Of a stretch of DNA of 33,155 bases, positions 7,068-31,449 are shown piece after piece. This DNA comes from Caldifarciminota bacterium (GTDB lineage: Bacteria; Hydrothermota; Tepidihabitantia; SM23-42), in NCBI GenBank assembly GCA_014859085.1, contig JACUUY010000013.1, forward strand, positions 1-33,155, written 5' to 3'. Both the position numbers and the translations under genes were made by a program. Numbering within the stretch: the first letter of the stretch is position 1; every line of letters starts with the position of its first letter. The notes beneath the pieces are model-generated. The model was not told the origin of the DNA, searched no databases, and worked only from the letters and a program-made list of their open reading frames with translations.

Positions 7068-10000
7068 TCATTTCGTTTTCAAAATCTTTATTGTTTGAAT
7101 GAATTTTTCTTCTTTGTCAGTTAGTGCTTCAAGTTTCAAGAAGTAAATTCCACAAGGTAAATTGCTCTCATAGTCAAATGAGCGATAGCCAGCTTCAATG
7201 TTGCCGTCCAAGATTTTGTCAACGATTCGCCCGCATACATCGTATGTCACTAATGATATTCTCGAATTGTACGGCACGGCGAGTTTAATTACGCCCTTTG
7301 CAGAAAATGGATTCGGAGCAAAGGACTGTGCAAATTCGCCAGGTAATTGTTCGATTGAAAATTCCTCAATGCCAAGCATGGTAATTGCAAATGAATCGCT
7401 GTAATAGACGATTGAAGAGTTCGCACTATTCGTCAGCCTGATTCGGGCATCCTGAGATTGGATTCCGGTGGGAATTGTCCATTCATAATTACGCAGATTA
7501 GTTTGGTTGGCAACAATCTGGTTCCAGGAACCACCGCCGTCTAATGAGTAAGAGAGGTTGACTTGCTGTATTACACCAAGTTGATTCCATGTGATATAGT
7601 ACTTTCTTGTTACGTACCACAGGTTACCCAAGGCAGGGGACGTAATCTCTAATACTGGGGGGGCGATTGTAAACGTGTCACTATTCGCAAAAACCAAAGG
7701 CTGCGCACTGTTGGCAATTCTAATTCGAGCCGTGTCAGAAATGATTTCGGGCATATTCCATTCGTAATAGCCATTATTGGCAACACTCGTGGCAATTGTT
7801 ATCCAGGTCTGGCCGCCATTAAGCGAATAAGAGAGAGTGGCGTTGCTGAAAGTGCCCTTTGTACGCCAGGTAAGATAGTATTTCCGGCCGGAAAGCAAAG
7901 TATCTCCGGAGATCGGCGAAGTGATTGTAATCTGCTGAGCTAGAATCGAGAACATCTCGCTAACGTCAAAAGCGTTCGGATTGGTCGCATTAATCAATTT
8001 CACGAAACAGCTTTCAGCATTTGCCGTGGGAACCGTCCATTCGTAATTACCATTATTGGTGATATTGCTTGCAATATTATTCCAGGTTGCACCATCATTG
8101 GTCGAGTACTGAATGTTCACTTGTGAAATAGTGCCGGTCCAATTCCAGGTAATGTAGTATTTCCTTCCCGAGATGAGATCGTTGCCCGCTTTTGGTGATG
8201 TGATCGTAACTGTCTGAAGGGGAATACGGAACCGCTCGCTTATATCATACACATTAAGGTTGCTGTAATTAAGAATTTTTACAAAGCAGCTATCCGAAGG
8301 TGTATTAGGAATCGTCCACTCGTAATTACCCGAATTTGTAACATTCTCCGCAATGGTATTCCAGACATTGCCATTGTCGTACGAATATTCAAGTTTTGCC
8401 GAAGGGAATGCGCCGGTATATCGCCAGCTGACATAATATTTCCTGCCAACGATCCATTCGCTATTCAAGGTTGGTGAAGTAATTTCAATTATTTGAGGAA
8501 TGATAGTGAATGTATCGCTTCTTCCAACCGCATTCAAATTCGCCGAATTTATCACGCGCACAACTGCCAGATTGGTTGGTGCATTTGGCACAGTCCATTC
8601 GTAAGACTGACTATTTGTTACCCCGGATGCCGATTGTGTCCAGATTAAGCCCCCATCGGTAGAGTATTCAATATTCACCGTAGAAAAGACGCCGGTATAA
8701 TCCCATGTGACATAGTATTTTCGGCCTACGAAAAAACTGTCACTAATAATTGGATAACTCACGAAAATTTCCTGAGGTTTGATTGTGAAGGTATCGCTGA
8801 TTGCTATGACATTTGAATTCTCGTAATTTCGTATGCGCACAAGGCTCTGGATTGATGGTGTATTGGGAATCGTCCATTCATATTCACCATCGTTAGCAGT
8901 AGGTGATACAACACTAACCCACGTAGCACCGCCGTCATATGAGTAGTCAATGACTGCATTGGGGAAATTACCGCTATACTGCCATAGGATGAAGTATTTT
9001 CTGCCAATAATCCATTCTTTGACTGAAGTTGGCGAAACAATTCTTATCTGTTGAATCGCAATAGAGAATGGTTCACTTATTTGGGCGGCCGAACCGTTGA
9101 TATCTGCGACTTGTATATAGCAATTATCCAGCAGGTAATTGGGGACGATCCAGGCATGATACCTCTGACTATTTGCCACTGTGGCAATATTGATCCATGG
9201 TCCAGCCGGACCACTTATTGAGTACGACAAATTCACCTGATTCGGTGACGCAAAAGTCTGGCTGTGCCAGGTAACATAACATGTATCCCCAACTGCAAAT
9301 GTATCGTTGATAATCGGAGCCAGGACATGAATTGGTTGAGTTAAAGAAGATGTATCAGTAATGAAAAAAACGTCGCTGTAATCAAATGTTCCAGTGTTGA
9401 GACTGCTTATTACCGCAACCCGGGCATTTGAAGACGTTATTGTATCACAGGTCCAGAGATAACAGCCAGTATTGGGCGTCGACGCGGTAACGATGTTCCA
9501 CGCACCACCACCATCGGTCGAGTATCGGATCTGTGCAGTCGGGAAATTGCCGAGCCATTTCCAATATATTGGATGCCTATGTTTGATGAAAAATGTATCG
9601 GCAGAAGCCGGACGCGTTACTGTTATCACATCGCTACTAATATTACAGGCTGCATCGCTTATGTCATAACAGTCGATATCCGCTGTGTTTATTACTTTTA
9701 TCCAAAAACCGTTGTAGACGCCGCTGGGTACGGTCCAGGCATAACTGCCATCGTTGGGGGTACTTGGAATAATTTGCTGCCAATTTGCACTATCGATTGA
9801 ATACTGAAGCTGAACACTGGCGAAATTGCCATTCCAGTCCCAAATAATTTCAAATTTGCTCCCCTCAATGAGCTGTTCGCCGCCATTTGGATAAGCAACT
9901 CTGATCATAGGTCTCACTATTTCAAAAACCTCGCTTAGTGCAAAGCAGTTTGGGTCATCGTTACTGGTAATCTTTATCCCGCAGGAATCAGAAATGTAAT

Positions 10001-11375
10001 AGGGAACTGTGAAATAATGACTGCCGTCGTTGGCTGTGTTTGATGTGATTGTCCACCAGTTGACACCACCGGCAATCTTATACCAGAGCTCCAGTTTGAT
10101 ATTGCTAACCGTTCCTTTCCAGTTCCAGTGAACCGGGTATGTCTCTCCAGCAACCAGTGCTTTGCCGCCATCCGGATCAAGAATAGTAAATGAAGGTGAT
10201 TGCACGGTGAAATTTGCGTCGCTGACGTCCCAGCAATTGGCATCAGCAACATTTGTAATTCTAATCCGGCACTGGGTTGTTGAAATATTAGGTATAGTCC
10301 AGATATAGTCGCCGTCATTAGCGGTTGATGCAATAATCTGGTTCCAGGTGCCCCCGCCATCTGAGGAATACTCTATTTTTACATTGCTGATCGTTCCAAT
10401 CCATTCCCAGTGAACGGGGCAAAAATCACCTACGACATAGGTTTCTCCGCCATCCGGTGATATGAGATGAAGACCGGTAGTAAGAATCGTAAAATTGTCA
10501 TCACTTACATCGAAACAAGTTGCATTTGACGCATCCGATACACTTACCTGGCAGCTAGTTGAGGGTGTATTCGGAACAGTCCAATTGTAACTGCCATCAT
10601 TTTGCGTCGATGTGACTACTGTAAGCCAGGTCCCACCATTATCAGTTGAGTATTCAATCCTTGCACTAGCAAAACTCCCCGACCAATCCCAGTAGATTGG
10701 GTAAACCTGACCGGTTGTATATGTTTCGCTACCATTTGGCTGCAGGACAGTAATTGTATTAGCAGCAATTGTAAAATGATTGTCCGAGATATCAAAGCTT
10801 GCAGGATCACTTAGATTCGTAATTTTAACCTGGCAGCTGGTGGATGGCGCATTAGGTGTATGCCAGCAGTGTTCACCGTCGTTTGTCGTGCTAGCAATGA
10901 TTTGAGTCCATGAGCTGCCGCCATCAGTTGAATATTCAATTCGCACATTGGCAAATTGTCCAGTCCAATCCCAGTGAATGGGATAATATTCTCCTATCTG
11001 CAAAACTTCTCCACCATCAGGATTTCTGATATCTATGGTCGGTCGCTTAATTGAAAACCCAGCATCATTTAGGTCGTAGATTGCGGAATTTGAGACATCG
11101 GATATTTTGACAAAGCAATTTGTTGATACGCTACTAGGAATCGTCCACAGATAATCACCGTCGTTCTGTGTAGATGACACAATCAGATTCCAATTGGTTC
11201 CTCCATCAGTAGTGTATTCAAGTTTTACCGAAGATATGCTGCCAGACCAGTTCCAATGAATGGGGTGTTTGTTACCTACTATCCACTGCTCACCGCCGTC
11301 AGGCATCGTGATTGTAAGACTTTGGGCATTTATCAACATACAAAAACAACCCATACAAAACAAGACCTTATTCAT
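7068..11375 (-). CDS. Secreted surface protein with 14 tandem ~93-residue beta-sandwich-like repeats and a sorting tail
   Basis: This is a 1435-residue protein. Residues 1-17 (MNKVLFCMGCFCMLINA) look like a signal peptide, and GGGGGG just before the ATG can serve as ribosome binding site. From about residue 19 to 1330 I count 14 tandem units of ~93 residues with the skeleton P(D/N)GGE...G..YPI.W.W.G....V.IEYS.DGG..W..I...T.NDG.Y.WT.P.........I. The core S-x-D-x-G-x-x-W resembles an Asp-box hairpin. Overall the unit resembles bacterial Kre9/KNH-like (Ser-Thr-rich GPI-anchor N-terminal) domains, but that assignment is from memory. Units 1-7 carry the W-x-W form and 9-14 a GRKYY.(T/S)W form. The last 100 residues (APNPFS...YDVCGRIVDKIL...GIYFLKL) match type IX/FlgD-like sorting domains. 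It is probably a cell-surface adhesin or S-layer-like protein. The gene is AT-richer than its neighbours. Confidence 0.85.
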   Translation of the reverse strand: MNKVLFCMGCFCMLINAQSLTITMPDGGEQWIVGNKHPIHWNWSGSISSVKLEYTTDGGTNWNLIVSSTQNDGDYLWTIPSSVSTNCFVKISDVSNSAIYDLNDAGFSIKRPTIDIRNPDGGEVLQIGEYYPIHWDWTGQFANVRIEYSTDGGSSWTQIIASTTNDGEHCWHTPNAPSTSCQVKITNLSDPASFDISDNHFTIAANTITVLQPNGSETYTTGQVYPIYWDWSGSFASARIEYSTDNGGTWLTVVTSTQNDGSYNWTVPNTPSTSCQVSVSDASNATCFDVSDDNFTILTTGLHLISPDGGETYVVGDFCPVHWEWIGTISNVKIEYSSDGGGTWNQIIASTANDGDYIWTIPNISTTQCRIRITNVADANCWDVSDANFTVQSPSFTILDPDGGKALVAGETYPVHWNWKGTVSNIKLELWYKIAGGVNWWTITSNTANDGSHYFTVPYYISDSCGIKITSNDDPNCFALSEVFEIVRPMIRVAYPNGGEQLIEGSKFEIIWDWNGNFASVQLQYSIDSANWQQIIPSTPNDGSYAWTVPSGVYNGFWIKVINTADIDCYDISDAACNISSDVITVTRPASADTFFIKHRHPIYWKWLGNFPTAQIRYSTDGGGAWNIVTASTPNTGCYLWTCDTITSSNARVAVISSLNTGTFDYSDVFFITDTSSLTQPIHVLAPIINDTFAVGDTCYVTWHSQTFASPNQVNLSYSISGPAGPWINIATVANSQRYHAWIVPNYLLDNCYIQVADINGSAAQISEPFSIAIQQIRIVSPTSVKEWIIGRKYFILWQYSGNFPNAVIDYSYDGGATWVSVVSPTANDGEYEWTIPNTPSIQSLVRIRNYENSNVIAISDTFTIKPQEIFVSYPIISDSFFVGRKYYVTWDYTGVFSTVNIEYSTDGGLIWTQSASGVTNSQSYEWTVPNAPTNLAVVRVINSANLNAVGRSDTFTIIPQIIEITSPTLNSEWIVGRKYYVSWRYTGAFPSAKLEYSYDNGNVWNTIAENVTNSGNYEWTIPNTPSDSCFVKILNYSNLNVYDISERFRIPLQTVTITSPKAGNDLISGRKYYITWNWTGTISQVNIQYSTNDGATWNNIASNITNNGNYEWTVPTANAESCFVKLINATNPNAFDVSEMFSILAQQITITSPISGDTLLSGRKYYLTWRTKGTFSNATLSYSLNGGQTWITIATSVANNGYYEWNMPEIISDTARIRIANSAQPLVFANSDTFTIAPPVLEITSPALGNLWYVTRKYYITWNQLGVIQQVNLSYSLDGGGSWNQIVANQTNLRNYEWTIPTGIQSQDARIRLTNSANSSIVYYSDSFAITMLGIEEFSIEQLPGEFAQSFAPNPFSAKGVIKLAVPYNSRISLVTYDVCGRIVDKILDGNIEAGYRSFDYESNLPCGIYFLKLEALTDKEEKFIQTIKILKTK
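7388..11321 (-). repeat. Array of 14 diverged ~280-bp coding repeats
   Basis: These are the coding units of the surface protein, each about 279 bp, arranged head to tail without spacers. They are diverged at DNA level (no long identical runs were noticed), so they are old duplications. Units 9-14 share the GRKYY sub-motif and probably expanded together. Units 1-6 share NGG or DGG at the start. Units 7 and 8 are the most degenerate and divide the two families. Confidence 0.75.
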
Positions 11376-11925: not shown

Positions 11926-11970
11926 TTGACAAACGGGCATAGGAGAATAAGGTGGGAGAAAGGAGTCAAA

Positions 11971-12294
11971 ATGGATGAGAAGCGGCGGCGATTCAGCCCG
12001 GAGAAGAAGGTTGCGATCCTGCGTGAGCATTTGAAGAACAAGATGCCGATCTCAGAACTCTGCGAGAAGTACGGTATGCATCCCAATGTGTTTTACCGTT
12101 GGGAGAAGGAACTATTTGAAGGCGGGATCGGTGTTTTTTCCGGTTTTTTTAGGAAGCGCAACAGCAAGGAACGAGCGGTGGAGCAGCGGTTGAAGACGAA
12201 GGTGCAGCAGCTACAGGAGGTTATTTCCTGGTTGACCGAGGAGAACATTGCGTTAAAAAAAGCCCTGGGGAGATTTGAGCGGTATGTGGGTTAA
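11971..12294 (+). CDS. IS3-family transposase OrfA (helix-turn-helix protein)
   Basis: This 107-residue basic protein begins MDEKRRRFSPEKKVAILREH and continues with ISELCEKYGMHPNVFYRWEKEL. That is the Tnp_1/HTH_8 helix-turn-helix found in IS3-type OrfA, which binds the element ends. A leucine-zipper-like helix follows (VEQRLKTKVQQLQEVISWL, then TEENIALKKAL), as expected for multimerisation. I chose ATG 11971 because AAAGGAG lies 5-6 nt before it. The longer frame to 11926 has no ribosome binding site. OrfA overlaps the orfB start at 12284, as in programmed-frameshift IS elements, but orfB is truncated, so OrfA is a stranded accessory protein. Relics like this often persist beside surface-protein genes. 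Confidence 0.82.
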   Translation: MDEKRRRFSPEKKVAILREHLKNKMPISELCEKYGMHPNVFYRWEKELFEGGIGVFSGFFRKRNSKERAVEQRLKTKVQQLQEVISWLTEENIALKKALGRFERYVG

Positions 12295-12569: not shown

Positions 12570-12597
12570 TTGACTTCGGAGGTTTTTTCGCTACAAT
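12570..12597 (+). promoter_or_regulatory. Sigma70-like promoter of the parAB operon
   Basis: TTGACT (12570-12575) and TACAAT (12592-12597) are 16 bp apart. The predicted transcription start (about 12604-12605) coincides with the first ATG at 12605, the start of an 8-codon ORF that overlaps parA. Both the -10 hexamer and the 16-bp spacing match the tsaD promoter. Confidence 0.65.
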
Positions 12598-12604
12598 AGG
12601 CAAA

Positions 12605-12631
12605 ATGAAGCGGGCAAAGCGGACAAAATGA
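12605..12631 (+). CDS. Candidate 8-codon leader peptide overlapping parA
   Basis: ATG 12605 opens MKRAKRTK and stops at TGA 12629-12631, which overlaps the parA ATG (12628) in an ATGA junction. The predicted transcription start falls on or next to this ATG, so ribosomes could load on the leaderless 5' end, translate the mini-ORF and re-initiate at parA, which has no Shine-Dalgarno sequence. The dodecamer AAAATGAAGCGG occurs at both starts (12602-12613 and 12625-12636), so the leader may have arisen by duplication of the parA start region. This is purely a sequence prediction. An alternative is that the duplication is incidental and parA initiates by itself. Confidence 0.4.
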   Translation: MKRAKRTK

Positions 12632-13386
12632 AGCGGATCGCGATCTGCAATCAGAAAGGTGGCGTCGGCAAAACGGCCACGGCGGTTAACATCACGGCCG
12701 GGCTCTCCCTGGCCGAGAAGAACGTCCTGCTTATCGACGTCGACCCGCAGGCGAACTCCACAAGCGGCCTGGGCATTGACTACAAGACCCTGAAGCGGTC
12801 GGTCTACGACTGTCTCTTCGAACCGACCCTGGTCCGGCAGGTGGTCATCAAGACGAAGTGGCCCAGGATCTCGATCCTACCCTCGACCACGGACCTGGCC
12901 GGCGCCGAGATCGAGCTTGTGAGCGAAAGCGAGCGCGAGGCAATGCTCGACAGGGTGTTGTCGCTGATCGCGCATGAGTACGATTTCGGGATTATCGATT
13001 GCCCGCCTTCGCTCGGGCTGCTGACCGTGAATGCGCTGGTGGCCAGCGACAGCGTGATCGTTCCGATCCAGTGCGAGTATTACGCGCTAGAGGGTCTGGA
13101 GAAACTGCTCAAGACCTTGAAGGCGATCAAGAACGACCTGAACAAGAATCTCATTATCGAGGGCATACTTTTGACCATGTACGACGCGCGCCTCAATCTG
13201 GCCAAGGACGTCGTCGAGGACATCCAACAGCACTTTCCCGACATCGTCTTCAAGACCGTGATTCCGCGTTCGGTACGGGTCGCCGAATCGCCCTCGCACG
13301 GAGCATCAGCCATCCATTACAATATTATGTCTTCCGGCGCTCAGGCATATCTCAATCTGACCAGGGAGATCCTCAACCGTGCGTAA
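12628..13386 (+). CDS. parA: ParA/Soj-type chromosome partitioning ATPase
   Basis: This 252-residue protein is a short, chromosomal (type Ib-like) ParA with no N-terminal DNA-binding extension. The deviant Walker A motif KGGVGKT is at 10-16, with the signature lysine K10 and P-loop lysine K15. The A' motif LLIDVDPQANSTSGLG spans about 35-50, and the Walker B region reads FGIIDCPPSLGLLTVNAL. ParA dimers bind the nucleoid in the ATP state and move ParB-parS complexes. parB follows with an 8-nt overlap, so the pair is translationally coupled. The start at 12628 is supported by the family N-terminus MKRIAICNQKGGVGKT. No consensus parS was found nearby. Confidence 0.95.
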   Translation: MKRIAICNQKGGVGKTATAVNITAGLSLAEKNVLLIDVDPQANSTSGLGIDYKTLKRSVYDCLFEPTLVRQVVIKTKWPRISILPSTTDLAGAEIELVSESEREAMLDRVLSLIAHEYDFGIIDCPPSLGLLTVNALVASDSVIVPIQCEYYALEGLEKLLKTLKAIKNDLNKNLIIEGILLTMYDARLNLAKDVVEDIQQHFPDIVFKTVIPRSVRVAESPSHGASAIHYNIMSSGAQAYLNLTREILNRA

Positions 13387-14230
13387 ACGGGCATTAGGCA
13401 GGGGTCTTGACGCGCTGATCCCGACCCGGGAGAAAGAGATCTTCCAGGAAGGCTACCGCATGATCTCAATCAGTGCGATCAAAAGGAATCCGTACCAGCC
13501 GAGGGCCCAGATCGACGAGTCGGAATTGAGCGATCTCGTGGCATCGATCAAGGATAAGGGCGTGATCGAACCAGTTGTCGTGAAGCGCAGCGGTGACGGT
13601 TTCGTGCTTGCGGCCGGCGAGCGGCGCTTGAGCGCGGCACGGGTTGCCGGGTTGCAGGAGATCCCGGCGATCATCAGGGACCTGAGTGACCAGGATCTCC
13701 TGGAGACCGCCCTCATCGAAAACCTGCAGCGCAAGGATTTGAATCCGATCGAGGAAGCGCTGGCTTATGAGCAGTTGAGCAAGAAGTTCGATCTGACGCA
13801 TGACCGCATTGCCGTGCTTGTGGGCAAGGACCGTTCCACAATAACCAACGCGCTGCGATTGCTGACGCTGCCCAGGAAGATCGTCGATTATCTTCGAAGG
13901 GGGAGACTCAATGCCGGCCACGCGCGCGCCCTGCTTGCGCTCAATGATGAGATGCAGATGATCCAGATCGCCGAGCGCGTCGTCAAGGAGGACCTGTCCG
14001 TGCGCCAGACCGAAGCACTCGTCAAGCGGCAGGGGAGGAAGCCGCGCCTCACGTTGGCCAAGAGCAAAGAGCCGAATATCGTAATGCTGGAGGAAGAACT
14101 CTCCAAACTCCTCCGGGCCAGGGTTACGATCGACTGGAAGAAGAACAAGGGGTCGATCGTCATTCATTGTGTCAGTGTCGATGACTTCAACCGCATATAC
14201 GAATACCTGAAAAAATCGCATCGGTCTTGA
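13379..14230 (+). CDS. parB: ParB/Spo0J chromosome partitioning protein
   Basis: This 283-residue protein starts at a GTG inside the end of parA (8-nt overlap). The N-terminus RKRALGRGLDALIP is the typical ParA-stimulating peptide of chromosomal ParB. The CTP-binding/ParB fold contains NPYQPR (37-42), AAGERRLSAAR (78-88, with the GERR box at 80-83) and ENLQRKDLNPIEEA (114-127). A central helix-turn-helix (about 130-170, DLTHDRIAVLVGKDRSTITN) recognises parS, and the basic C-terminal segment mediates dimerisation. All conserved boxes are intact. ParB loads as a CTP-dependent clamp at parS near the replication origin and is moved by ParA. The stop codon overlaps the -35 box of the next transcription unit. 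Confidence 0.95.
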   Translation: MRKRALGRGLDALIPTREKEIFQEGYRMISISAIKRNPYQPRAQIDESELSDLVASIKDKGVIEPVVVKRSGDGFVLAAGERRLSAARVAGLQEIPAIIRDLSDQDLLETALIENLQRKDLNPIEEALAYEQLSKKFDLTHDRIAVLVGKDRSTITNALRLLTLPRKIVDYLRRGRLNAGHARALLALNDEMQMIQIAERVVKEDLSVRQTEALVKRQGRKPRLTLAKSKEPNIVMLEEELSKLLRARVTIDWKKNKGSIVIHCVSVDDFNRIYEYLKKSHRS

Positions 14231-14255
14231 CTTACTGACAATTCTCAGTTATAAT
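14227..14255 (+). promoter_or_regulatory. Sigma70-like promoter of the Roadblock/AAA+ operon, near-leaderless
   Basis: TTGACT (14227-14232, overlapping the parB stop) and perfect TATAAT (14250-14255) are 17 bp apart. Eight bases separate the -10 box from ATG 14264, so the transcript should have a leader of 0-2 nt. The Roadblock-AAA+-PATAN genes can therefore be expressed independently of parAB. Confidence 0.7.
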
Positions 14256-14263
14256 TATTAGAT

Positions 14264-14671
14264 ATGGAGATACCTGAAGTAATAGTAATCTCGAAAAGCA
14301 AATACGACAAACTCGGTCAGCTGCTCGAGGAATTCTGCAGTCAGGCCAATACGATATGGGCTCTATTTTCCACACTTGCCGGTCAGCTCGTTGTCCAGCG
14401 CGGTTTCGTCGATTCATTTGATGTCCTGACGATCAACGCGGTTGCCTGCAGCATTTTCAATTCGACGATGGAACTGGCGAACATCGTAGGTGACCGGAAA
14501 TTCTCGAGTTTCCTGCAGGAAGGCGCCGGGGCGAGCATGTACTACAGGTCAATAAATGACGACTACTTGCTGGTAACGCTCTTTGATGACCGGACACTGC
14601 CCGGCCTGGTCAAGGTTGCTTCCGATGATTTCTGCCTCGAAGCAGCAAGAATACTCGAAGCCGAAAGATGA
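14264..14671 (+). CDS. Roadblock/LC7-like protein
   Basis: This 135-residue protein has the alternating helix and strand pattern of Roadblock/LC7 proteins. It has an N-terminal amphipathic helix (YDKLGQLLEEFCSQAN), a strand pair (TIWALFSTLAGQLVVQRGFVD), a helix (VLTINAVACSIFNSTMELANIVG), then LQEGAGASMYYRSINDDYLLVTLFDD, the usual 'inhibit-response' beta hairpin, and a C-terminal helix. Members such as MglB act as partners or GAPs of Ras-like GTPases, or as scaffolds. No GTPase gene is adjacent here, so its partner may be the neighbouring AAA+ protein. The gene starts directly at its own promoter and its stop overlaps the AAA+ start by 4 nt (ATGA), implying stoichiometric co-translation. The fold assignment is from pattern, with good but not full certainty. 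Confidence 0.72.
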   Translation: MEIPEVIVISKSKYDKLGQLLEEFCSQANTIWALFSTLAGQLVVQRGFVDSFDVLTINAVACSIFNSTMELANIVGDRKFSSFLQEGAGASMYYRSINDDYLLVTLFDDRTLPGLVKVASDDFCLEAARILEAER

Positions 14672-16479
14672 AGCCAGAATATACATTCGAGAATTTCTTT
14701 GTTCATGAGGGCAACAAGGTAGCCTATACCGCCGCGAAGAAGGTCGCGGAATCGCCCGGCGAGGTCTTCAACCCGCTCTATATACACGGGGCGGTGGATT
14801 TGGGCAAGACGCATCTGCTTTCGGCGCTCAGCGATGCGCTGAAGAAAAAATGCACGGTCGATTTCATGTCCGCCGCCGAATTCGAAAACGCGTTGATGGA
14901 TCGCCAGAAATTCGATGTACCGTTGATCGTAGACGATATCCACAAGATGAGCGATATCCACAAGAAGCGGCTCAAGAGTATCGTGGAGCGCGCACTGCAG
15001 GATAACATTCAATTATGCTTCTCTTCTGAAGTTCCGCCGCGCGCGGTGAATGGGTTCAGCTCCAAACTGTGTTCGCTGATCGAGAGCGGGATGGTTTGTG
15101 AACTGACCGCGCCCGATAAGGGGGTTCGTGTTCACATGGTCCGGAAGAAAGCGGATGATGCGGGCATTATTCTTGCCGACGATACGATCGAAGAACTGGC
15201 ACGGATCGCAACCGGTTCTTTCGGCACGATCGACAGTATGATCAGGCGTCTCGTTTCTTATTCTTCACTGGGTAACCTGGCGATCGACGCGAATAGCATA
15301 CGGCTGATCCTTAAAGATTTCTTCCCCGGGGCACAGCCCCTGGTCGTTTCTTCGCTGTTGGAGCAGACAAGAAGCCAAGACATCTGGTCCCTGGCCGATG
15401 TTGATGAACCAGGAGTCAATCAGGAATATGAGAAGAGGCTTGGGATCTGGGAAATGAAGGGTTATGATGTTTCGTATCTAAAGGCAAGCTATCCGGGCGA
15501 CGCGCTCAAGTTGCGAAGGGCGTACCACGATTATGTTGACCGGGTAAGGGATCTCGTTGAGTTACAGCAGGTTTATTCCAAGGTCGATCGCGAGCGATCG
15601 CCGGCCCAAGCACTGCAGATCGAATCGATGTTGTTCAATCCCTTCAAAGTCAACGAGATCAGACGTCTGCTCGCGGCATTTGGTGAGGACGCGCGCACGG
15701 TGAAGGGGTTCCGCAAGTTCAATGAATTCATAGTCGGATTCTGTAACAAGTTGGTCTGGGATGCCTACCATGACAATATTCTGGAAAATCCCGGCGTTCA
15801 AAATCCGTTCATAGTCTTCGGCCGCAAGGGAACCGGCAAGTCGCACTTCCTCGAGGCCGCGTGCGATGATCTGACGTCCCGGAACAAGGCGGTGCTACTG
15901 TACGATCTGGCGCTTACCGCGGATATTGATCCTGTCACCGCTGCCGACCGCCACGACATCTTGGTCCTCGATAATTTTGATGCGACCTTCAATGCTTCAG
16001 AGAGCGTGATCAGTGACGTCGGCGGACTCGTCGATGCGTTCAGAAAGAAGAACCGGCAGGTCCTGATCGCATCGAACCCCGTGATCGAGGATACTCCGGT
16101 GCCGGCCGCATTGAGGAGCATTCTCGAGGCGGGCGTGGCTTCGGTGCTGGAAAGGCCTTCCGCCGATGTCGTCGCTCAATACATCAAGCGCCACATCGGT
16201 TCGGACTTGCCGCCGGGCATTGAACCGGTTTTCCCCGAGTTCGAATCTTTCTATGAGATCGACTACTACATACAGGGTCTGGGCGAGGACGGGCAGGCGG
16301 TTATACCGCTGGGCCTTCCTGGTGAGGAGCCGCATATCCAACCCGCTGCCGCCAGCCGCCCGGTGCCGGCCGTTGGCCATGAAGCAGAAGCGGCTGCCGC
16401 CGGTGTCCCGCGTGAGATCTGCGCCGAGAGCCTGGTGCTGACCGAAGTCACGGAAGAATTGATCGATGAGAAGTTTTGA
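14668..16479 (+). CDS. Tandem DnaA-type AAA+ protein (two AAA+ modules, no DNA-binding domain IV)
   Basis: This 603-residue protein opens YTFENFFVHEGNKVAYTAAK, like the DnaA/Hda AAA+ start. Module 1 has Walker A GAVDLGKT (41-48; the middle glycine of the usual GxxGxGKT is Asp) and Walker B LIVDD (86-90). At the DnaA arginine-finger position it reads LCSLIESG (usually xxSRFxxG), and at the sensor-2 position FGTIDS (usually VRELEG), so both arginines are missing. A helical linker (about 255-370, with GIWEMKGYDVSYLKASYPGD) joins module 2, which has an intact Walker A GRKGTGKS (385-392), Walker B ILVLDN (431-436) and a sensor-1-like IASNP. Its finger position reads LRSILEAG. The tail (540-603) is Pro/Ala/Glu-rich and probably disordered. 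No DnaA helix-turn-helix domain IV is seen. I infer a regulator or scaffold rather than an initiator, acting with the Roadblock protein upstream. Confidence 0.8.
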   Translation: MKPEYTFENFFVHEGNKVAYTAAKKVAESPGEVFNPLYIHGAVDLGKTHLLSALSDALKKKCTVDFMSAAEFENALMDRQKFDVPLIVDDIHKMSDIHKKRLKSIVERALQDNIQLCFSSEVPPRAVNGFSSKLCSLIESGMVCELTAPDKGVRVHMVRKKADDAGIILADDTIEELARIATGSFGTIDSMIRRLVSYSSLGNLAIDANSIRLILKDFFPGAQPLVVSSLLEQTRSQDIWSLADVDEPGVNQEYEKRLGIWEMKGYDVSYLKASYPGDALKLRRAYHDYVDRVRDLVELQQVYSKVDRERSPAQALQIESMLFNPFKVNEIRRLLAAFGEDARTVKGFRKFNEFIVGFCNKLVWDAYHDNILENPGVQNPFIVFGRKGTGKSHFLEAACDDLTSRNKAVLLYDLALTADIDPVTAADRHDILVLDNFDATFNASESVISDVGGLVDAFRKKNRQVLIASNPVIEDTPVPAALRSILEAGVASVLERPSADVVAQYIKRHIGSDLPPGIEPVFPEFESFYEIDYYIQGLGEDGQAVIPLGLPGEEPHIQPAAASRPVPAVGHEAEAAAAGVPREICAESLVLTEVTEELIDEKF

Positions 16480-16516
16480 ATCCCGCGGCGTCCGGGACAA
16501 CCAGGGGAGGTAGCGC

Positions 16517-18106
16517 TTGGCGATAAAGGGCTCGCTCGCCGAGGCCTCGCTGCCTGAAGTGATCCGGCTTCTGTCCTATTCGCTCAGGTCTGGATGCCTT
16601 TCGGTAACCGACGGCGCAAATCTCGGTAGCATTTTTCTCAAAGAAGGCAAGATCATCTATGCCACGATCCGTAAGCGCAAGCTGCGCATCGGTACTTCCC
16701 TGCTGAAGAAACAACTCTTTGGAGAAGAAATGCTCGACCGGGCCTTACACATGCAAAAGGAGAAGAAGGGCAAACGGATCGGCGAGATATTGGTGGAGAT
16801 GGGAGTGATATCGCGTCCGGTTCTCGAGCGGGAGTTGAAAGAACAGATCGAAGAAGCATTATATGAAATGCTCACCTGGGAAAAAGGCCATTTTAATTTC
16901 GAGGTCGGCTTCTTGCCTTCATCTTCGGAGCAAACCACGGTGTTATCATCTGAGGATTTACTGCTCGGCGGCGCGCGTCTCATGCATGACTGGCAGAAGA
17001 TAGAGCAGAAACTGCCCGGTTTTGACACGGTGCTGTCCGTACGCGAGAACATGAAGGATTTCAATCTGGCCGAATCGGAACAGAAGGTTCTGTCGTTTGT
17101 CAACGGCGCGAACAGCGTCGATCAGATAGTCAAGGGAAGCGGGCTCACTTACCATGATGCGTGCCGGGTCGTATACGTGCTGCTGGCGGCCGGCGTGGTC
17201 GAGAAAGCAGAGAAGCCCGCCAGTAAAAAACCCGGCGCCGTTGACGTGGATGCGTACAAAAGCACCGCGCTTGCTTTCTACCAGGGTGCGCAGTATGATG
17301 ATGCCGAACGGGAATTCAAGAAGATCGCGGAGATCCAGCCCGATCATACCGAAGCCCTGTTCTATCTCGGGTTGATCGAGATCGCGCGCCATAATGACGA
17401 GGCTGCGCGGCAGTATCTTGAAGGAGCGCTGGCAAGGGAGAACCAGATATCGATATTGATCGATCTGGGGTTCATCTGCAGCCGGATGGGACGGTTCGAG
17501 GAGGCAATCGGTTTCCTGTATCGGGCCCGCGCCCAGAAGCCGGATAGCATCAAGACGCTTCTGAATCTGGGTATTGCGAACTACCGGCGCGGCGAACTGG
17601 CTGAAGCCGCGCGGGATTTTGAGCGCTGTCTTGACCTGTCCGAGTCGCTCATCACACCCGTTCTGTACTTATCCGCGATCCACATCCGGAACAATGAAAT
17701 GGACAAGGCGACCGGACTGTTTACCAGGGCAACCGAGCGGTTCCCCAGGTTTGCCGCTTTCAAGAACAACCTTGCGCTGCTCCATGAAATGGCCGGCCGA
17801 GACGAGGATGCGGAGAATCTATACCGCCAGGTCCTGGCCACACAACCGGACGATACTGCGGTGCTCAAGAATCTTGCCGGTTTGTACTACCGGCTCGGCA
17901 TCTACGGCGGTGCGCGCCAGTACTATGAGCAGATCCCGGAAAAGGATCGCGATCTACAGGTTGCCGTGAATCTGGGCCGCCTATGTCTGCTCCAGGGTGA
18001 CCAGAACCGGGCCCGCGCCAATTGGGAACGCGCACTCGCGTTGAATCCCGGTGATCAGAGGCTCGCGCGCGACATCGAGATCATGGGTGATCTCCTGCCG
18101 GGCTGA
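16517..18106 (+). CDS. PATAN (DUF4388) domain protein with TPR repeats
   Basis: This 529-residue protein begins at a TTG preceded by GGGGAGG. Residues 1-165 match DUF4388/PATAN: IKGSLAEASLPEVIRLLSYS, then GCLSVTDGANLGSIFLKEGK and IYA, then the helical GxxLVxxGxI-type segment (RIGEILVEMGVISRPVLERE) and MLTWEKGHFNFE. Residues ~170-235 form a small winged-helix-like region. From ~236 to 529 there are about eight tetratricopeptide repeats (for example ALAFYQGAQYDDAEREFKKI and GRFEEAIGFLYRARAQKPDS). PATAN domains are found in two-component and GTPase (MglA/Roadblock) signalling proteins and mediate protein interactions. TPRs are scaffolds. No signal peptide or membrane segment is present, so it is cytoplasmic. 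It follows the AAA+ gene by 37 nt and is likely co-transcribed. Confidence 0.82.
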   Translation: MAIKGSLAEASLPEVIRLLSYSLRSGCLSVTDGANLGSIFLKEGKIIYATIRKRKLRIGTSLLKKQLFGEEMLDRALHMQKEKKGKRIGEILVEMGVISRPVLERELKEQIEEALYEMLTWEKGHFNFEVGFLPSSSEQTTVLSSEDLLLGGARLMHDWQKIEQKLPGFDTVLSVRENMKDFNLAESEQKVLSFVNGANSVDQIVKGSGLTYHDACRVVYVLLAAGVVEKAEKPASKKPGAVDVDAYKSTALAFYQGAQYDDAEREFKKIAEIQPDHTEALFYLGLIEIARHNDEAARQYLEGALARENQISILIDLGFICSRMGRFEEAIGFLYRARAQKPDSIKTLLNLGIANYRRGELAEAARDFERCLDLSESLITPVLYLSAIHIRNNEMDKATGLFTRATERFPRFAAFKNNLALLHEMAGRDEDAENLYRQVLATQPDDTAVLKNLAGLYYRLGIYGGARQYYEQIPEKDRDLQVAVNLGRLCLLQGDQNRARANWERALALNPGDQRLARDIEIMGDLLPG

Positions 18107-18127
18107 TACCGCGCATCTCAATATTCG

Positions 18128-18940
18128 ATGGAGGCGTTATCTAAAAAAGATCTAACAAGTGCGCTCGATTTTGCGGCGCGCCTGGCAGAGCGCGTAGGCC
18201 GTACGATAGCCCGGAAGTCCGGCAACCGCATACACGTTACCTACAAAAGCGAGATCGATCTCGTGACCCAGTTCGATGAACAAGCCCAGCGCATGATCGT
18301 TGATCATCTGAGCAGGGAGTACCCGGATCACGGCATGTTATGCGAAGAGAATGTCAATACCGGCGCCGATCGGCCCGCGCGCTGGATCGTGGATCCGCTC
18401 GATGGTACGACCAATTTCGCCCACGGCCTGCCGATCTGGGCGATCTCGATCGCCCTCGAGATGAACGGCGAGGTAGTCCTTGGTGTCGTACACGATCCAA
18501 GCCGCGGCGAGACTTTTTCCGCGGCGAAGGGCAGAGGTGCCCGCCTCAACGGCCGCCGGATCCACGTTTCAAGCACGAGAGAACTCGAGCGCAGTCTGCT
18601 TGTGACCGGGTTTCCTTATGACATCCGCCACAGCAGGAATAACAATCTGTTCCAGTTCGGCCTATTTGCCGTGCGTGCGCGCGCCGTGAGACGGCTGGGT
18701 TCGGCCGCACTGGACTTGTGCTACACGGCCTGCGGCCGCTTTGATGGTTACTGGGAATTGAAGTTGTCGCCCTGGGACCAGGCGGCCGGCTCGCTGATCC
18801 TGCGTGAAGCAGGGGGTAGGATCACCGACTTTGCCGGCAGGAAATTCAGCATCTACGGAGATCAGGTCCTGGCGACCAACGGATTGATACATCGCCAGAT
18901 GATGCGCGTGCTACAGTCCTCGCGTCATGACACGGGCTGA
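18128..18940 (+). CDS. Inositol monophosphatase family protein (SuhB-like)
   Basis: This 270-residue protein has the full inositol monophosphatase signature: E73/E74 in LCEEN, VDPLDGTTNF (88-97, metal ligands D89 and D92) and WDQAAGSLILREAGG (216-230, D217). These Li+-sensitive, Mg2+-dependent phosphatases hydrolyse myo-inositol-1-phosphate and sometimes fructose-1,6-bisphosphate or NADP. The inositol-1-phosphate synthase encoded at 22361 supplies the matching substrate, so a two-step glucose-6-phosphate to inositol route is plausible. It lies 21 nt after the PATAN-TPR gene and probably shares its transcript, though no functional link is evident. There is no clear Shine-Dalgarno sequence. The 3' end is convergent with the outer-membrane protein gene, with a 7-bp gap. 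Confidence 0.9.
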   Translation: MEALSKKDLTSALDFAARLAERVGRTIARKSGNRIHVTYKSEIDLVTQFDEQAQRMIVDHLSREYPDHGMLCEENVNTGADRPARWIVDPLDGTTNFAHGLPIWAISIALEMNGEVVLGVVHDPSRGETFSAAKGRGARLNGRRIHVSSTRELERSLLVTGFPYDIRHSRNNNLFQFGLFAVRARAVRRLGSAALDLCYTACGRFDGYWELKLSPWDQAAGSLILREAGGRITDFAGRKFSIYGDQVLATNGLIHRQMMRVLQSSRHDTG

Positions 18941-25784: not shown

Positions 25785-25917
25785 GGGTGACACTGCGCTT
25801 GAGCCGGACCGGCCCCGACATACCCCCGGGGGGTGGGAACTGCCCGTACTCATGCTGCTCACTCTGGCGCTGGTCATCGTGGTCTGGCGCATTACAAGAA
25901 ACCGCATGAGCGAGTGA
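25777..25917 (+). CDS. Small single-pass membrane protein (46 residues), unrecognised
   Basis: This short frame starts at ATG 25777, overlapping the end of the protease gene by 8 nt, and stops at 25915-25917, five nt before purL. It encodes an acidic/proline-rich head (MSEGDTALEPDRPRHTPGGW), one hydrophobic segment (VLMLLTLALVIVVW) and a short basic tail (RITRNRMSE), a plausible tail-in-cytoplasm or N-in orientation. It fills the gap between ctp and purL exactly and is in the same direction, which argues that it is translated by coupling. I recognise no family. It could be a protease accessory or an anchor. Confidence 0.55.
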   Translation: MSEGDTALEPDRPRHTPGGWELPVLMLLTLALVIVVWRITRNRMSE

Positions 25918-25922
25918 ACCGC

Positions 25923-28739
25923 ATGCCTGACCGATCGTTCCGCGTAGAGATAACGAGCAGGTCTGACCCGAGGGGTAATCTCGTGAGAGATTCGTTCCAT
26001 GCGTTCGGCCTGGCCGGTGTCGAGAGTATCACGGTAAGCGATGTGTACTACATAAGCGGGCCGATCTCGGCACAGCAGGCAGAGAAGATCGCTCGGGAAC
26101 TGCTGTGCGATCCGGTTTGCGAGAGTTTTCGGGTCAGCCCGGCCGCAGAACCGGTCCAGGGGATGGAGGTCTTGTTCAATCCGGGCGTGACCGACCCCAG
26201 GGAAGCCAGTGTCGCAAAGGCGATCGCCGACCTGTCCATCGAGGTCAAGTCGGTCAGGACGGGCAATAACTACCTCGTTGCCGGTACCTTCGATCGGCCG
26301 CAGCTCATGGAATGCGCTGCGCTCTTTCTCTATAATCCCCTTATCCAGCATATCGGTCATGGTGTTGCGGTATGTTCCGAACCGTCGGTCTATGAATTAC
26401 GATTGAGCGAGATCGATCTGTCCGGTGATCTGGCTGAACTGAGCAGAGAAATGGGCCTCTCGCTGTCCGTCGCTGAAATGGCAGCGGTCAAGGAATACTT
26501 CGATCGCGGGGGGAGGAAGCCGACCGATGTCGAACTGGAGACGATCGCCCAGACCTGGAGCGAGCACTGCCGGCACAAAACATTCCTCGGCCGGATCCTT
26601 TTCGACGACGAGCAGATCGACAACCTTCTCAAGAAGACGATCATGCGCGCAACCAGCGAGATAGCCAGTCCCCTTTGCCTGTCGGTCTTCCACGATAACT
26701 CGGGGATCATCGAGTTTGACGAAGAATACGGCGTGTGCTTCAAGGTCGAGACGCACAATCACCCGTCGGCGTTAGAGCCTTATGGCGGCGCGGCGACAGG
26801 GATCGGCGGCGTGATCCGTGATATTCTGGGCACTGGTTTGGGTGCCAAACCCATCATGAACACGGACGTATTCTGTTTCGGCCTGCCCGATTTCGATTAC
26901 CACAAACTGCCTGCCGGTATCCTCCATCCGAAGACGATCATCAAGGGCGTGATCCGGGGCGTGCGCGATTACGGCAACCGCATGGGCATTCCCACGGCGA
27001 GCGGCGCCATCTACTTCGATGATGATTTCCTCTACAACCCTCTGGTCTATTGCGGCTGCGTGGGCTTGATCAGGAAGGACCGCATTGCCAAGGGTGCACG
27101 TGAGGGCGATGCGGTATTGCTGGTCGGCGGCCGGACCGGCCGGGACGGCATCCACGGCGTGACCTTTGCTTCGGCCGAGCTCTCGGGCCAGTCAGAGAAA
27201 TCGTGTGTTCAGATCGGCAATCCGATCATGGAAAAGCGGGTCCTTGACTGTCTGCTCAAGGTCAGCGATGAGGGTATTCTGACCTCGGTCACTGACTGCG
27301 GCGGCGGCGGTCTGTCAAGCGCCGTGGGCGAGATGGGAAAGGATCTCGGTGTTGCGGTGCATCTCGAACGCGTACTGCTCAAGTATGCCGGGTTGTCGCC
27401 GCGTGAGATATGGATCTCCGAGTCACAGGAGCGGATGATCCTTGCCGTGTCCCCGGAACATCTCGAACGCGTGGTAGCGATCTTCCAACGGGAAGGGGTG
27501 GAATCGACCGTGATCGGAGAATTCACCGCCGACCGCCGGTTGGTGTTGTACTACGGAGAGACGAAAATGTGTGACCTGGACATGGGGTTCCTCCATGACG
27601 GTCTGCCCGTGCCCGTCAAGAAGGCGAAAGCAAGAGTCAAACCGGTGAGTGATGTGATGCCGCCGAAACCGGTCGACCTCAATTCGATATTGCTCAGCAT
27701 TGCCAGCGGTCTCAATGCCTGTTCCCGGGAATGGGTGATCAGGGAATACGACCATGAGGTCCAGGGCGCCAGCGCGGTCAAACCGCTGACCGGGGTATTC
27801 GCGAGCGGGCCGCAGGACGCGGTCGTCGTTCGGCCGAGGCTGGACCGCAACCGGGGCGTCGTTGTTTCCTGCGCGCTGAACCCGGGTTTCGGCCGGCTCG
27901 ATGCTTACAACATGGCGCTCTCGGTCGTCGATGAGGCATTGCGGAATCTCGTCGCCGTGGGCGGCGATATCAAAAGGGCGGCAATGCTCGATAATTTCTG
28001 TCTTTCATCACCGGAACGCGAAAAGGTTCTGGGTGATCTCGTTCTGTCGGCGAGGGGCTGCTATGACGCGGCAAAGTGCTACGGCGTGCCCTTTATTTCG
28101 GGCAAGGACAGCCTGTACAATGAGTGGTTCGATCATGACGGCAACATTTTCTTGATCCCGCCGACCCTCCTGATTTCGGCGATCGGGATCATCGAGGATG
28201 TCACGAAGTGCGTGACTATGGATATCAAGGAAATTGGCTCTGCTCTCTATCTGGTCGGCTGGACCGGGGATGAATCAGGCGGATCTGAATACTTCCGCAT
28301 GCTGGGGATTCATGGCGGCCGGGTCCCCGGTCTCGATTTCGGGAACGGACCCAGGACAATGGAACAGATGCACCGTGCGATCAGCATGGGTCTGGTATGC
28401 GCCTGCCACGATCTTTCCGAAGGCGGCCTGGGACTGGCCCTTGCCGAGATGGCATTCAGCGGTGACATCGGTGTGGCGATCGATCTCGACACAGTACCTT
28501 TTGTTGGCAAGCGGCGACGCTTCGATACGATACTCTTTGCCGAATCGAACACTCGGTTCCTGGTCGAAGTGCGTGAAGATAACGCCGATAAGTTCGCCGG
28601 ACTGTTCCAGGGCCTGCCCGTTGCCCGGATCGGCAAGACGGTCGAGGACAAATGTCTGCGCGTGTTCGCGGCCGAACGCAAGGTGGTCGACCTGCCGCTC
28701 CTTGTGCTCAGGAAGAAATGGCTGAGAAAAGTAGTATAG
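25923..28739 (+). CDS. purL: Phosphoribosylformylglycinamidine synthase, PurL with N-terminal PurS-like region
   Basis: This 938-residue protein lies between small PurL (~740) and large PurL (~1300). The first ~150 residues look like two PurS-like units (FRVEITSRSDPRGNLVRDSF... and EVLFNPGVTDPREASVAKAI...). The AIRS-type core then shows TWSEHCRHKTF starting at residue 211, ETHNHPSA at 276, GGAATGIGGVIRDILGTGLG and CGGGGLSSAVGEMG, with a second AIRS-like half containing SGKDSLYNEW and ACHDLSEGGLGLALAEMA. There is no C-terminal glutaminase domain, so a separate PurQ is needed. It converts FGAR to FGAM in purine synthesis. I chose ATG 25923, which follows the small ORF; the longer frame to 25833 overlaps that ORF and encodes no family sequence. 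It ends flush against the convergent subtilase gene. Confidence 0.95.
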   Translation: MPDRSFRVEITSRSDPRGNLVRDSFHAFGLAGVESITVSDVYYISGPISAQQAEKIARELLCDPVCESFRVSPAAEPVQGMEVLFNPGVTDPREASVAKAIADLSIEVKSVRTGNNYLVAGTFDRPQLMECAALFLYNPLIQHIGHGVAVCSEPSVYELRLSEIDLSGDLAELSREMGLSLSVAEMAAVKEYFDRGGRKPTDVELETIAQTWSEHCRHKTFLGRILFDDEQIDNLLKKTIMRATSEIASPLCLSVFHDNSGIIEFDEEYGVCFKVETHNHPSALEPYGGAATGIGGVIRDILGTGLGAKPIMNTDVFCFGLPDFDYHKLPAGILHPKTIIKGVIRGVRDYGNRMGIPTASGAIYFDDDFLYNPLVYCGCVGLIRKDRIAKGAREGDAVLLVGGRTGRDGIHGVTFASAELSGQSEKSCVQIGNPIMEKRVLDCLLKVSDEGILTSVTDCGGGGLSSAVGEMGKDLGVAVHLERVLLKYAGLSPREIWISESQERMILAVSPEHLERVVAIFQREGVESTVIGEFTADRRLVLYYGETKMCDLDMGFLHDGLPVPVKKAKARVKPVSDVMPPKPVDLNSILLSIASGLNACSREWVIREYDHEVQGASAVKPLTGVFASGPQDAVVVRPRLDRNRGVVVSCALNPGFGRLDAYNMALSVVDEALRNLVAVGGDIKRAAMLDNFCLSSPEREKVLGDLVLSARGCYDAAKCYGVPFISGKDSLYNEWFDHDGNIFLIPPTLLISAIGIIEDVTKCVTMDIKEIGSALYLVGWTGDESGGSEYFRMLGIHGGRVPGLDFGNGPRTMEQMHRAISMGLVCACHDLSEGGLGLALAEMAFSGDIGVAIDLDTVPFVGKRRRFDTILFAESNTRFLVEVREDNADKFAGLFQGLPVARIGKTVEDKCLRVFAAERKVVDLPLLVLRKKWLRKVV

Positions 28740-31406: not shown

Positions 31407-31449
31407 CAATCCTCCTTTTCTTGTTCTTGTCCTCGAGTGCTGCTATCTC

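Follow-up and report, generated by a model that had tools for sequence, protein, structure and literature searches.

A tandem DnaA-type AAA+ protein in a predicted MglA/MglB-type polarity module that probably came to lie beside parAB by chromosome rearrangement

Polarity control by the Ras-like GTPase MglA and its Roadblock partner MglB has been worked out in detail chiefly in Myxococcus, the Myxococcus xanthus system having Frz chemosensory input, TPR/PATAN proteins and type IV pilus output, with the TPR effector SgmX acting for MglA (MglA-SgmX-PilB; PMC11580455). Cyanobacterial PATAN response regulators (PixG, PixE and LsiR) link a chemosensory system to pilus motors, and PATAN contact with PilB is cited in PMC10519157. 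In the actinobacterial conservons (CvnA-D), a Roadblock protein and an MglA-type GTPase share an operon with a further signalling protein, and such pairs serve non-motility outputs (PMC4316618); PATAN genes are also found near some MglA/MglB genes (PMC4316618). The locus considered here lies in a 33,155-nucleotide stretch of DNA (the window) from a Caldifarciminota bacterium (assembly GCA_014859085.1, contig JACUUY010000013.1), in which parA and parB are followed, all on the plus strand, by genes for a Roadblock/LC7 protein, a tandem DnaA-type AAA+ protein (AAA2) and a PATAN (DUF4388)-TPR protein.

The last three genes are best interpreted, with a probability of about two in three, as belonging to an MglA/MglB-type polarity and type IV pilus control unit in which a DnaA-derived ATPase would form a hub; the system is conserved and apparently undescribed. 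This proposal draws on the MglB assignment, the DnaA fold, gene order, co-occurrence with MglA and CheW, a chemosensory-linked locus in a second lineage (genome G158), reciprocal synteny around parAB, retained pilus motors and purifying selection. By contrast with the M. xanthus system, for which no AAA+ component is described in the papers found (a comparison that did not cover RomR/RomX), the present module has AAA2, an MglA (MglA2) without the intrinsic arginine finger and, in the window's genus, no chemosensory (che) genes. The conservons have a histidine kinase where the AAA+ protein stands here, and lack PATAN and che components. The link between Roadblock and PATAN proteins is already known (PMC4316618); the open-access literature searched yielded no account of an Mgl system with an AAA+ or DnaA-like protein such as AAA2. 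An earlier reading of the window made from its letters alone (the original prediction) had proposed the five-gene order, the strand, the intergenic spacings and the three protein classes, all of which are borne out below, as is the AAA+ fold that it expected a structure search to reveal.

Open reading frames (ORFs) were called mechanically on the window, and protein families were assigned with Pfam and NCBIfam. The Roadblock protein (14264-14671, plus strand, 135 residues) by itself has no Pfam match, including to PF03259, and a PF03259 search of its own genome did not retrieve the gene, so that orthologue profiles were used. The single sequence matches PDB MglB (6h5b) at 1.4e-8 and the NCBIfam MglB model at 5.9e-9, its 36 bits being below equivalog level for a model with a 200-bit cut-off; a profile of 10 orthologues, 6 of which match PF03259, matches PDB MglB at 8.5e-17. 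The gene product is, as judged by these similarities, MglB-like, with a Roadblock fold and MglB-level similarity. Identity among the copies in the genus is 85-95%.

Most related genera within the family have mglA2 adjacent to the Roadblock gene; in the window's genus and in family f2 this adjacency is absent, with mglA2 located elsewhere. MglA2 (G000:C93:5127-5723) is a second MglA in the window's genome, additional to a canonical MglA that has a canonical MglB beside it there; the genus retains both MglA proteins. MglA2 carries the TVPGQ G3 motif of Group 1 MglA, but in 19/19 sequences read (families f1 and f2) it has DQT, replacing the arginine beside the G2 threonine that a published survey reports to be conserved throughout Group 1 (PMC4316618), and that is present as DRT in the canonical MglA and in MglA of other families. 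Because MglA2 lacks this intrinsic arginine, GTPase-activating activity of the Roadblock protein towards it is uncertain; as a lead only, the Roadblock protein here may pair with a GTPase needing another catalytic source.

AAA2 (14668-16479, plus strand, 603 residues; TIGR00362 7e-49, Bac_DnaA 5.8e-33), the gene for which overlaps the Roadblock gene by 4 nucleotides, combines two DnaA-type domains, the second degraded, with a family-specific linker. Domain 1 (14668-15327, plus strand) is predicted by AlphaFold2 and Foldseek to have the fold of DnaA domain III, with a TM(target) of 0.82 and an rmsd of 2.4 to that of Bacillus subtilis DnaA (8bv3); mean pLDDT is 74, residues 11-160 being mostly above 85, while the low pTM (0.39) means that the model gives no relative domain placement. 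Both Walker motifs (A, GAVDLGKT; B, IVDD) are kept, but the arginine finger and sensor-II arginine of domain 1, kept in most other copies in families f1 and f2, are lost in 7/7 copies of the genus, in which this domain probably still binds ATP without DnaA-type hydrolysis. The helical linker (residues 250-341; 15415-15690, plus strand), with its EKIYxWEMKGF and RLIELQ signatures, is the most conserved part of the protein, W261, M263, K264 and G265 being invariant in 23 sequences; since it matches no family in scans, a model of it was used to define the AAA2 family. Domain 2 (15748-16197, plus strand) is a degenerate DnaA-type P-loop domain with GRKGTGKS and ILVLDN motifs. In the window protein the second half matches the DnaA ATPase domain at 4.8e-4, below the cut-off, in three relatives from the second lineage both Bac_DnaA domains are complete (E 1e-109 to 1e-126), and in two genus members (G084 and G090) the protein stops shortly past the linker, at 418-426 residues, without domain 2. 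AAA2 identity within the genus is 49-73%. The likeness to DnaA domain III and Hda thus concerns the fold and sequence of domain 1; AAA2 differs from both in its tandem architecture, its WEMKGF linker, its setting among MglA/MglB, che and PATAN genes, and in that a Pfam scan found no DnaA DNA-binding domain IV (PF08299) in it. Against the curated Hda model, which describes a short single AAA+ protein, it scores 103.6 bits with a cut-off of 194.8. Genome G087 has a second AAA2 copy (G087:C1:276534-277652) with no Roadblock or PATAN neighbours; its translation contains a stretch of X residues close to domain 2, the DNA there being possibly masked.

The PATAN-TPR gene (16517-18106, plus strand, TTG start, 529 residues) begins after a gap of 37 nucleotides, and its product has a clear PATAN match (DUF4388 1.5e-30; 106 bits, curated cut-off 25) together with TPRs. 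A predicted cyclic di-GMP-binding motif of MshEN type lies within PATAN at residues 57-110 (16685-16846, plus strand; NF053729, 41.5 bits, cut-off 38), and two RLGxxLV...L..AL..Q repeats inside PATAN are kept in most orthologues in an alignment of 43; perhaps this insert senses cyclic di-GMP. PATAN is here fused to TPRs and carries this motif, and no receiver domain was found in the protein, unlike the PixG/PixE/LsiR response regulators.

In the mechanism that we infer, MglA2-GTP and the Roadblock protein would together be the switch. AAA2, with its origin in a duplication of DnaA domain III, would be a hub that depends on ATP and either receives the signal of the GTPase or retains it, and PATAN-TPR would be the output adaptor to the pilus motor PilB, by analogy with cyanobacterial PATAN proteins and Myxococcus SgmX. 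Where che genes exist, CheR, CheB and CheD would adapt upstream receptors. It is also possible, though put forward here only tentatively, that the DnaA-derived tandem AAA+ proteins constitute a new class of MglA partner, as regulator or effector, namely a duplicated initiator ATPase domain recruited as a nucleotide-driven hub of front-rear polarity, working with an MglA that no longer has its own arginine finger.

The linker model identified AAA2 in 55 of 147 WOR-3 genomes, in one copy each except for G087. MglA is present in 54/55 of these, the remaining genome (G082) being 76% complete, as against 42/92 genomes without AAA2 (p 2e-12), and CheW in 46/55 as against 14/92 (p 9e-17), both p values treating genomes as independent, with relatedness uncorrected; the nine AAA2 genomes without CheW are seven from the window's genus, G074 and G010. 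In 29/55, an MglA gene precedes AAA2 on the same strand at a distance of no more than 1.3 kb. Outside the genus, the common order in many WOR-3 families is (PilT)-(AccC)-MglA or Roadblock-AAA2-PATAN/TPR-CheR-CheD-CheB-TPR2. A contig scan with a single narrow pattern, which does not measure wider spread, gave 22 loci, in WOR-3/Stahlbacteria and on one contig labelled Gemmatimonadetes J002. Both genomes covered from the second lineage, the phylum of that contig, are AAA2-positive: G158 has CheY-CheA-...-CheC-TPR-PATAN-AAA2, and the other has a second AAA2 copy beside AccC and PATAN. Elsewhere in the window's genome, on a separate contig, a TPR-TPR-Roadblock-like run faces AccC and PilT (G000:C169:295-7240); genes of these kinds border AAA2 in other families.

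Related genera of the window's family have the order DHH-MglA2-Roadblock-AAA2-PATAN-CheR-CheD-CheB-TPR2-IMP-OMP-MtnA-FolD, where IMP is an inositol-monophosphatase-family gene. Comparison of gene orders shows DHH-mglA2-roadblock-AAA2-PATAN/TPR-cheR-cheD-cheB-TPR2-IMP as the reconstructed ancestral locus of the family, of which Roadblock, AAA2 and PATAN-TPR would be the retained core in the window, and it likewise shows loss of the che segment in the genus, together with that of every detectable CheA, CheW and CheB elsewhere in the genome. In the window, cheR-cheD-cheB-TPR2 is gone from the site that it occupies in those genera (18107-18127), and CheB and CheW/CheA gave no match in any of the 8 genus genomes, including single-contig assemblies that are 93-97% complete; the pilus motors PilT/PilB are retained. 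The che loss, the rearranged gene order and the lost AAA2 arginines coincide in the same seven genomes. The dN/dS ratios (nonsynonymous to synonymous substitution rates) are about 0.03 (Roadblock), 0.09 (AAA2) and 0.10 (PATAN) for the pair G086 and G089, to which they are limited since dS is saturated or undefined for most other pairs; such low values do not have the appearance of decay and argue for continued function.

The segregation ATPase gene parA (12628-13386, plus strand; AAA_31 2e-63) overlaps parB (13379-14230, plus strand, GTG start; ParB_N 1.7e-29, HTH_ParB 1.5e-36, ParB_C) by 8 nucleotides, and the Roadblock gene starts 33 nucleotides past parB, a gap that ranges from 33 to about 340 nucleotides within the genus. 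The order parA-parB-Roadblock-AAA2-PATAN-IMP is present in 7/8 genomes of this WOR-3 genus, the eighth being 67% complete, and parAB is linked to the module in this genus only; as far as the contigs extend, TsaD/GuaA2 precede this order and OMP-MtnA-FolD follow it, apart from a few inserted ORFs in G000, G086 and G089. In all 14 genomes examined outside the genus (10 others of the family and 4 of the sister family f2), the gene after parB is dapA or encodes a glycosyltransferase (GT), and the module is elsewhere; parB is single-copy, giving one match in each genome in which it was detected. Gene assignments in these synteny comparisons, and in those across WOR-3 families, are best phmmer matches to single references on mechanical ORFs. 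The other family members have dapA-dapB-GT behind parB, or GT directly, as in G077, where no dapA intervenes. The outgroup family f2 has parB-dapA-dapB in 4/4 genomes, so the parB-roadblock joint (14231-14263 in the window) is derived.

All 8 genus genomes have DHH-mglA2-GT-flippase, that is, the GT block that follows parAB elsewhere, and the reciprocal arrangement is seen in all 7 genomes with both loci; the parB-roadblock and mglA2-GT joints mean that both products of a reciprocal exchange are present. The module therefore lies beside parAB only through an old chromosome rearrangement. The simplest route would be one inversion that broke the chromosome behind parB and also between mglA2 and roadblock. 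As a single inversion predicts, parAB lies on the opposite strand to the module or mglA2 in four closed genomes, G086, G087 and the outgroups G076 and G077; in G088, mglA2 is on the same strand as parAB, which does not fit, so that a later inversion or a two-step event must be allowed. Thus, while the upstream genes are those of a chromosomal ParABS system, they are neighbours by rearrangement with no membership of the module elsewhere, and the parAB neighbourhood should not be used as a guide to its function.

The promoter-like site that had been claimed before the Roadblock gene (14227-14255, plus strand, TTGACT-17-TATAAT) does match the consensus at 11/12 positions, in a region where a consensus scan gave 7 such sites with 3.4 expected by chance; its -10 box ends 9 nucleotides ahead of the Roadblock start codon (ATG), and a transcript begun there would have next to no leader. 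A second site, 5' of parA (12570-12597, plus strand, TTGACT-16-TACAAT), matches at 10/12 positions, which is no evidence of function. A search with the Bacillus parS consensus, allowing at most 2 mismatches, found no parS-like site in the window. The IMP gene (18128-18940, plus strand; PF00459 5.9e-72) forms a right border of the locus that is kept across the family, the IMP-OMP-MtnA-FolD flank being common to several genera. Just upstream of parA is an orphan transposase orfA-like fragment (11926-12294; HTH_Tnp_1 1.7e-13), and between the TsaD/GuaA2-like genes and parA the minus strand encodes a 1435-residue protein with many similar repeat units (7068-11375). Further downstream are PurL with a PurS-like N-terminal stretch at residues 36-102 (25833-28739), possibly a PurS-PurL fusion, and a subtilase-like protease, the C terminus of which weakly matches type IX secretion sorting tails (28740-31409).

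Several points weigh against assignment as a polarity and pilus control unit. Contact of AAA2 with MglA2 or the Roadblock protein is inferred from gene order alone, mglA2 is unlinked in the genus, and the canonical MglAB is a second possible partner. The sole WOR-3 isolate has pili, yet motility was not observed (PMC12285271); the module's output might then be attachment to surfaces, or a polarity function of another kind. A general MglA-type signalling role with a non-pilus output, such as polysaccharide secretion, envelope or developmental control, as in the conservons, would accord with the non-motility outputs of conservon pairs and with the absence of che genes and of direct PilT linkage at the genus locus; it is considered unlikely, given that PilT lies upstream in many relatives, that the genus keeps its pilus motors and that PATAN domains contact PilB in cyanobacteria.

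Also unlikely is a secondary co-option, in which a neutral exchange was followed by coupling of the module to ParAB, with ParB/parS or the origin pole as a positional cue replacing chemosensory input. The coincidence of new order, che loss and arginine loss, the unusual conservation of the Roadblock protein and the long retention of the linkage, as judged from AAA2 divergence within the genus, are what such a history might leave. By contrast, the unrelated IMP-OMP-MtnA-FolD flank has been kept even longer across the family, making order retention weak evidence for co-option, and the variable parB-roadblock gap may hold its own promoter.

A segregation or replication-licensing apparatus, in which ParAB would work with an Hda- or SirA-like AAA2 through Roadblock and PATAN-TPR adaptors, is very improbable and largely refuted as an ancestral function, being rejected on synteny: the order is kept in all seven genus genomes with the locus and domain 1 is DnaA/Hda-like, but none of the other genera examined has parAB linked to the module, and the joint marks a rearrangement of which the reciprocal product is also present. 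In other genomes the module keeps company with MglA, CheR/CheB/CheD and PilT. A Pfam scan found no DnaA DNA-binding domain in AAA2, the window has no match to the Bacillus parS consensus with up to 2 mismatches, and the genus has lost the arginine finger of domain 1 through which a DnaA-type AAA+ protein would be expected to make its contacts. The original prediction had offered either segregation/polarity or licensing; its polarity-type option and its connection of Roadblock and PATAN proteins with GTPase signalling are favoured, and the segregation or licensing role is not. Its suggestion that the AAA+ protein replaces an initiator regulator of the Hda or SirA type is not supported: synteny speaks against it, PF08299 was not found in the protein, and the same genome has a separate DnaA-sized homologue (G000:C221). 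The conserved five-gene order that it looked for in related genomes holds within the genus (7/8) and not beyond it, where parAB is never linked in the genomes examined (0/14), the outcome that it had itself named as refuting.

The locus illustrates how the junction left by a rearrangement may look like a working operon, and how its reciprocal product allows it to be recognised. If the preferred assignment as an MglA/MglB-type polarity and pilus control unit is true, an initiator domain would have been reused outside replication, and Mgl polarity would gain an ATPase that had not been suspected, a DnaA-derived AAA+ protein conserved beside MglA, PATAN and che genes throughout an uncultured phylum as well as in a second lineage.

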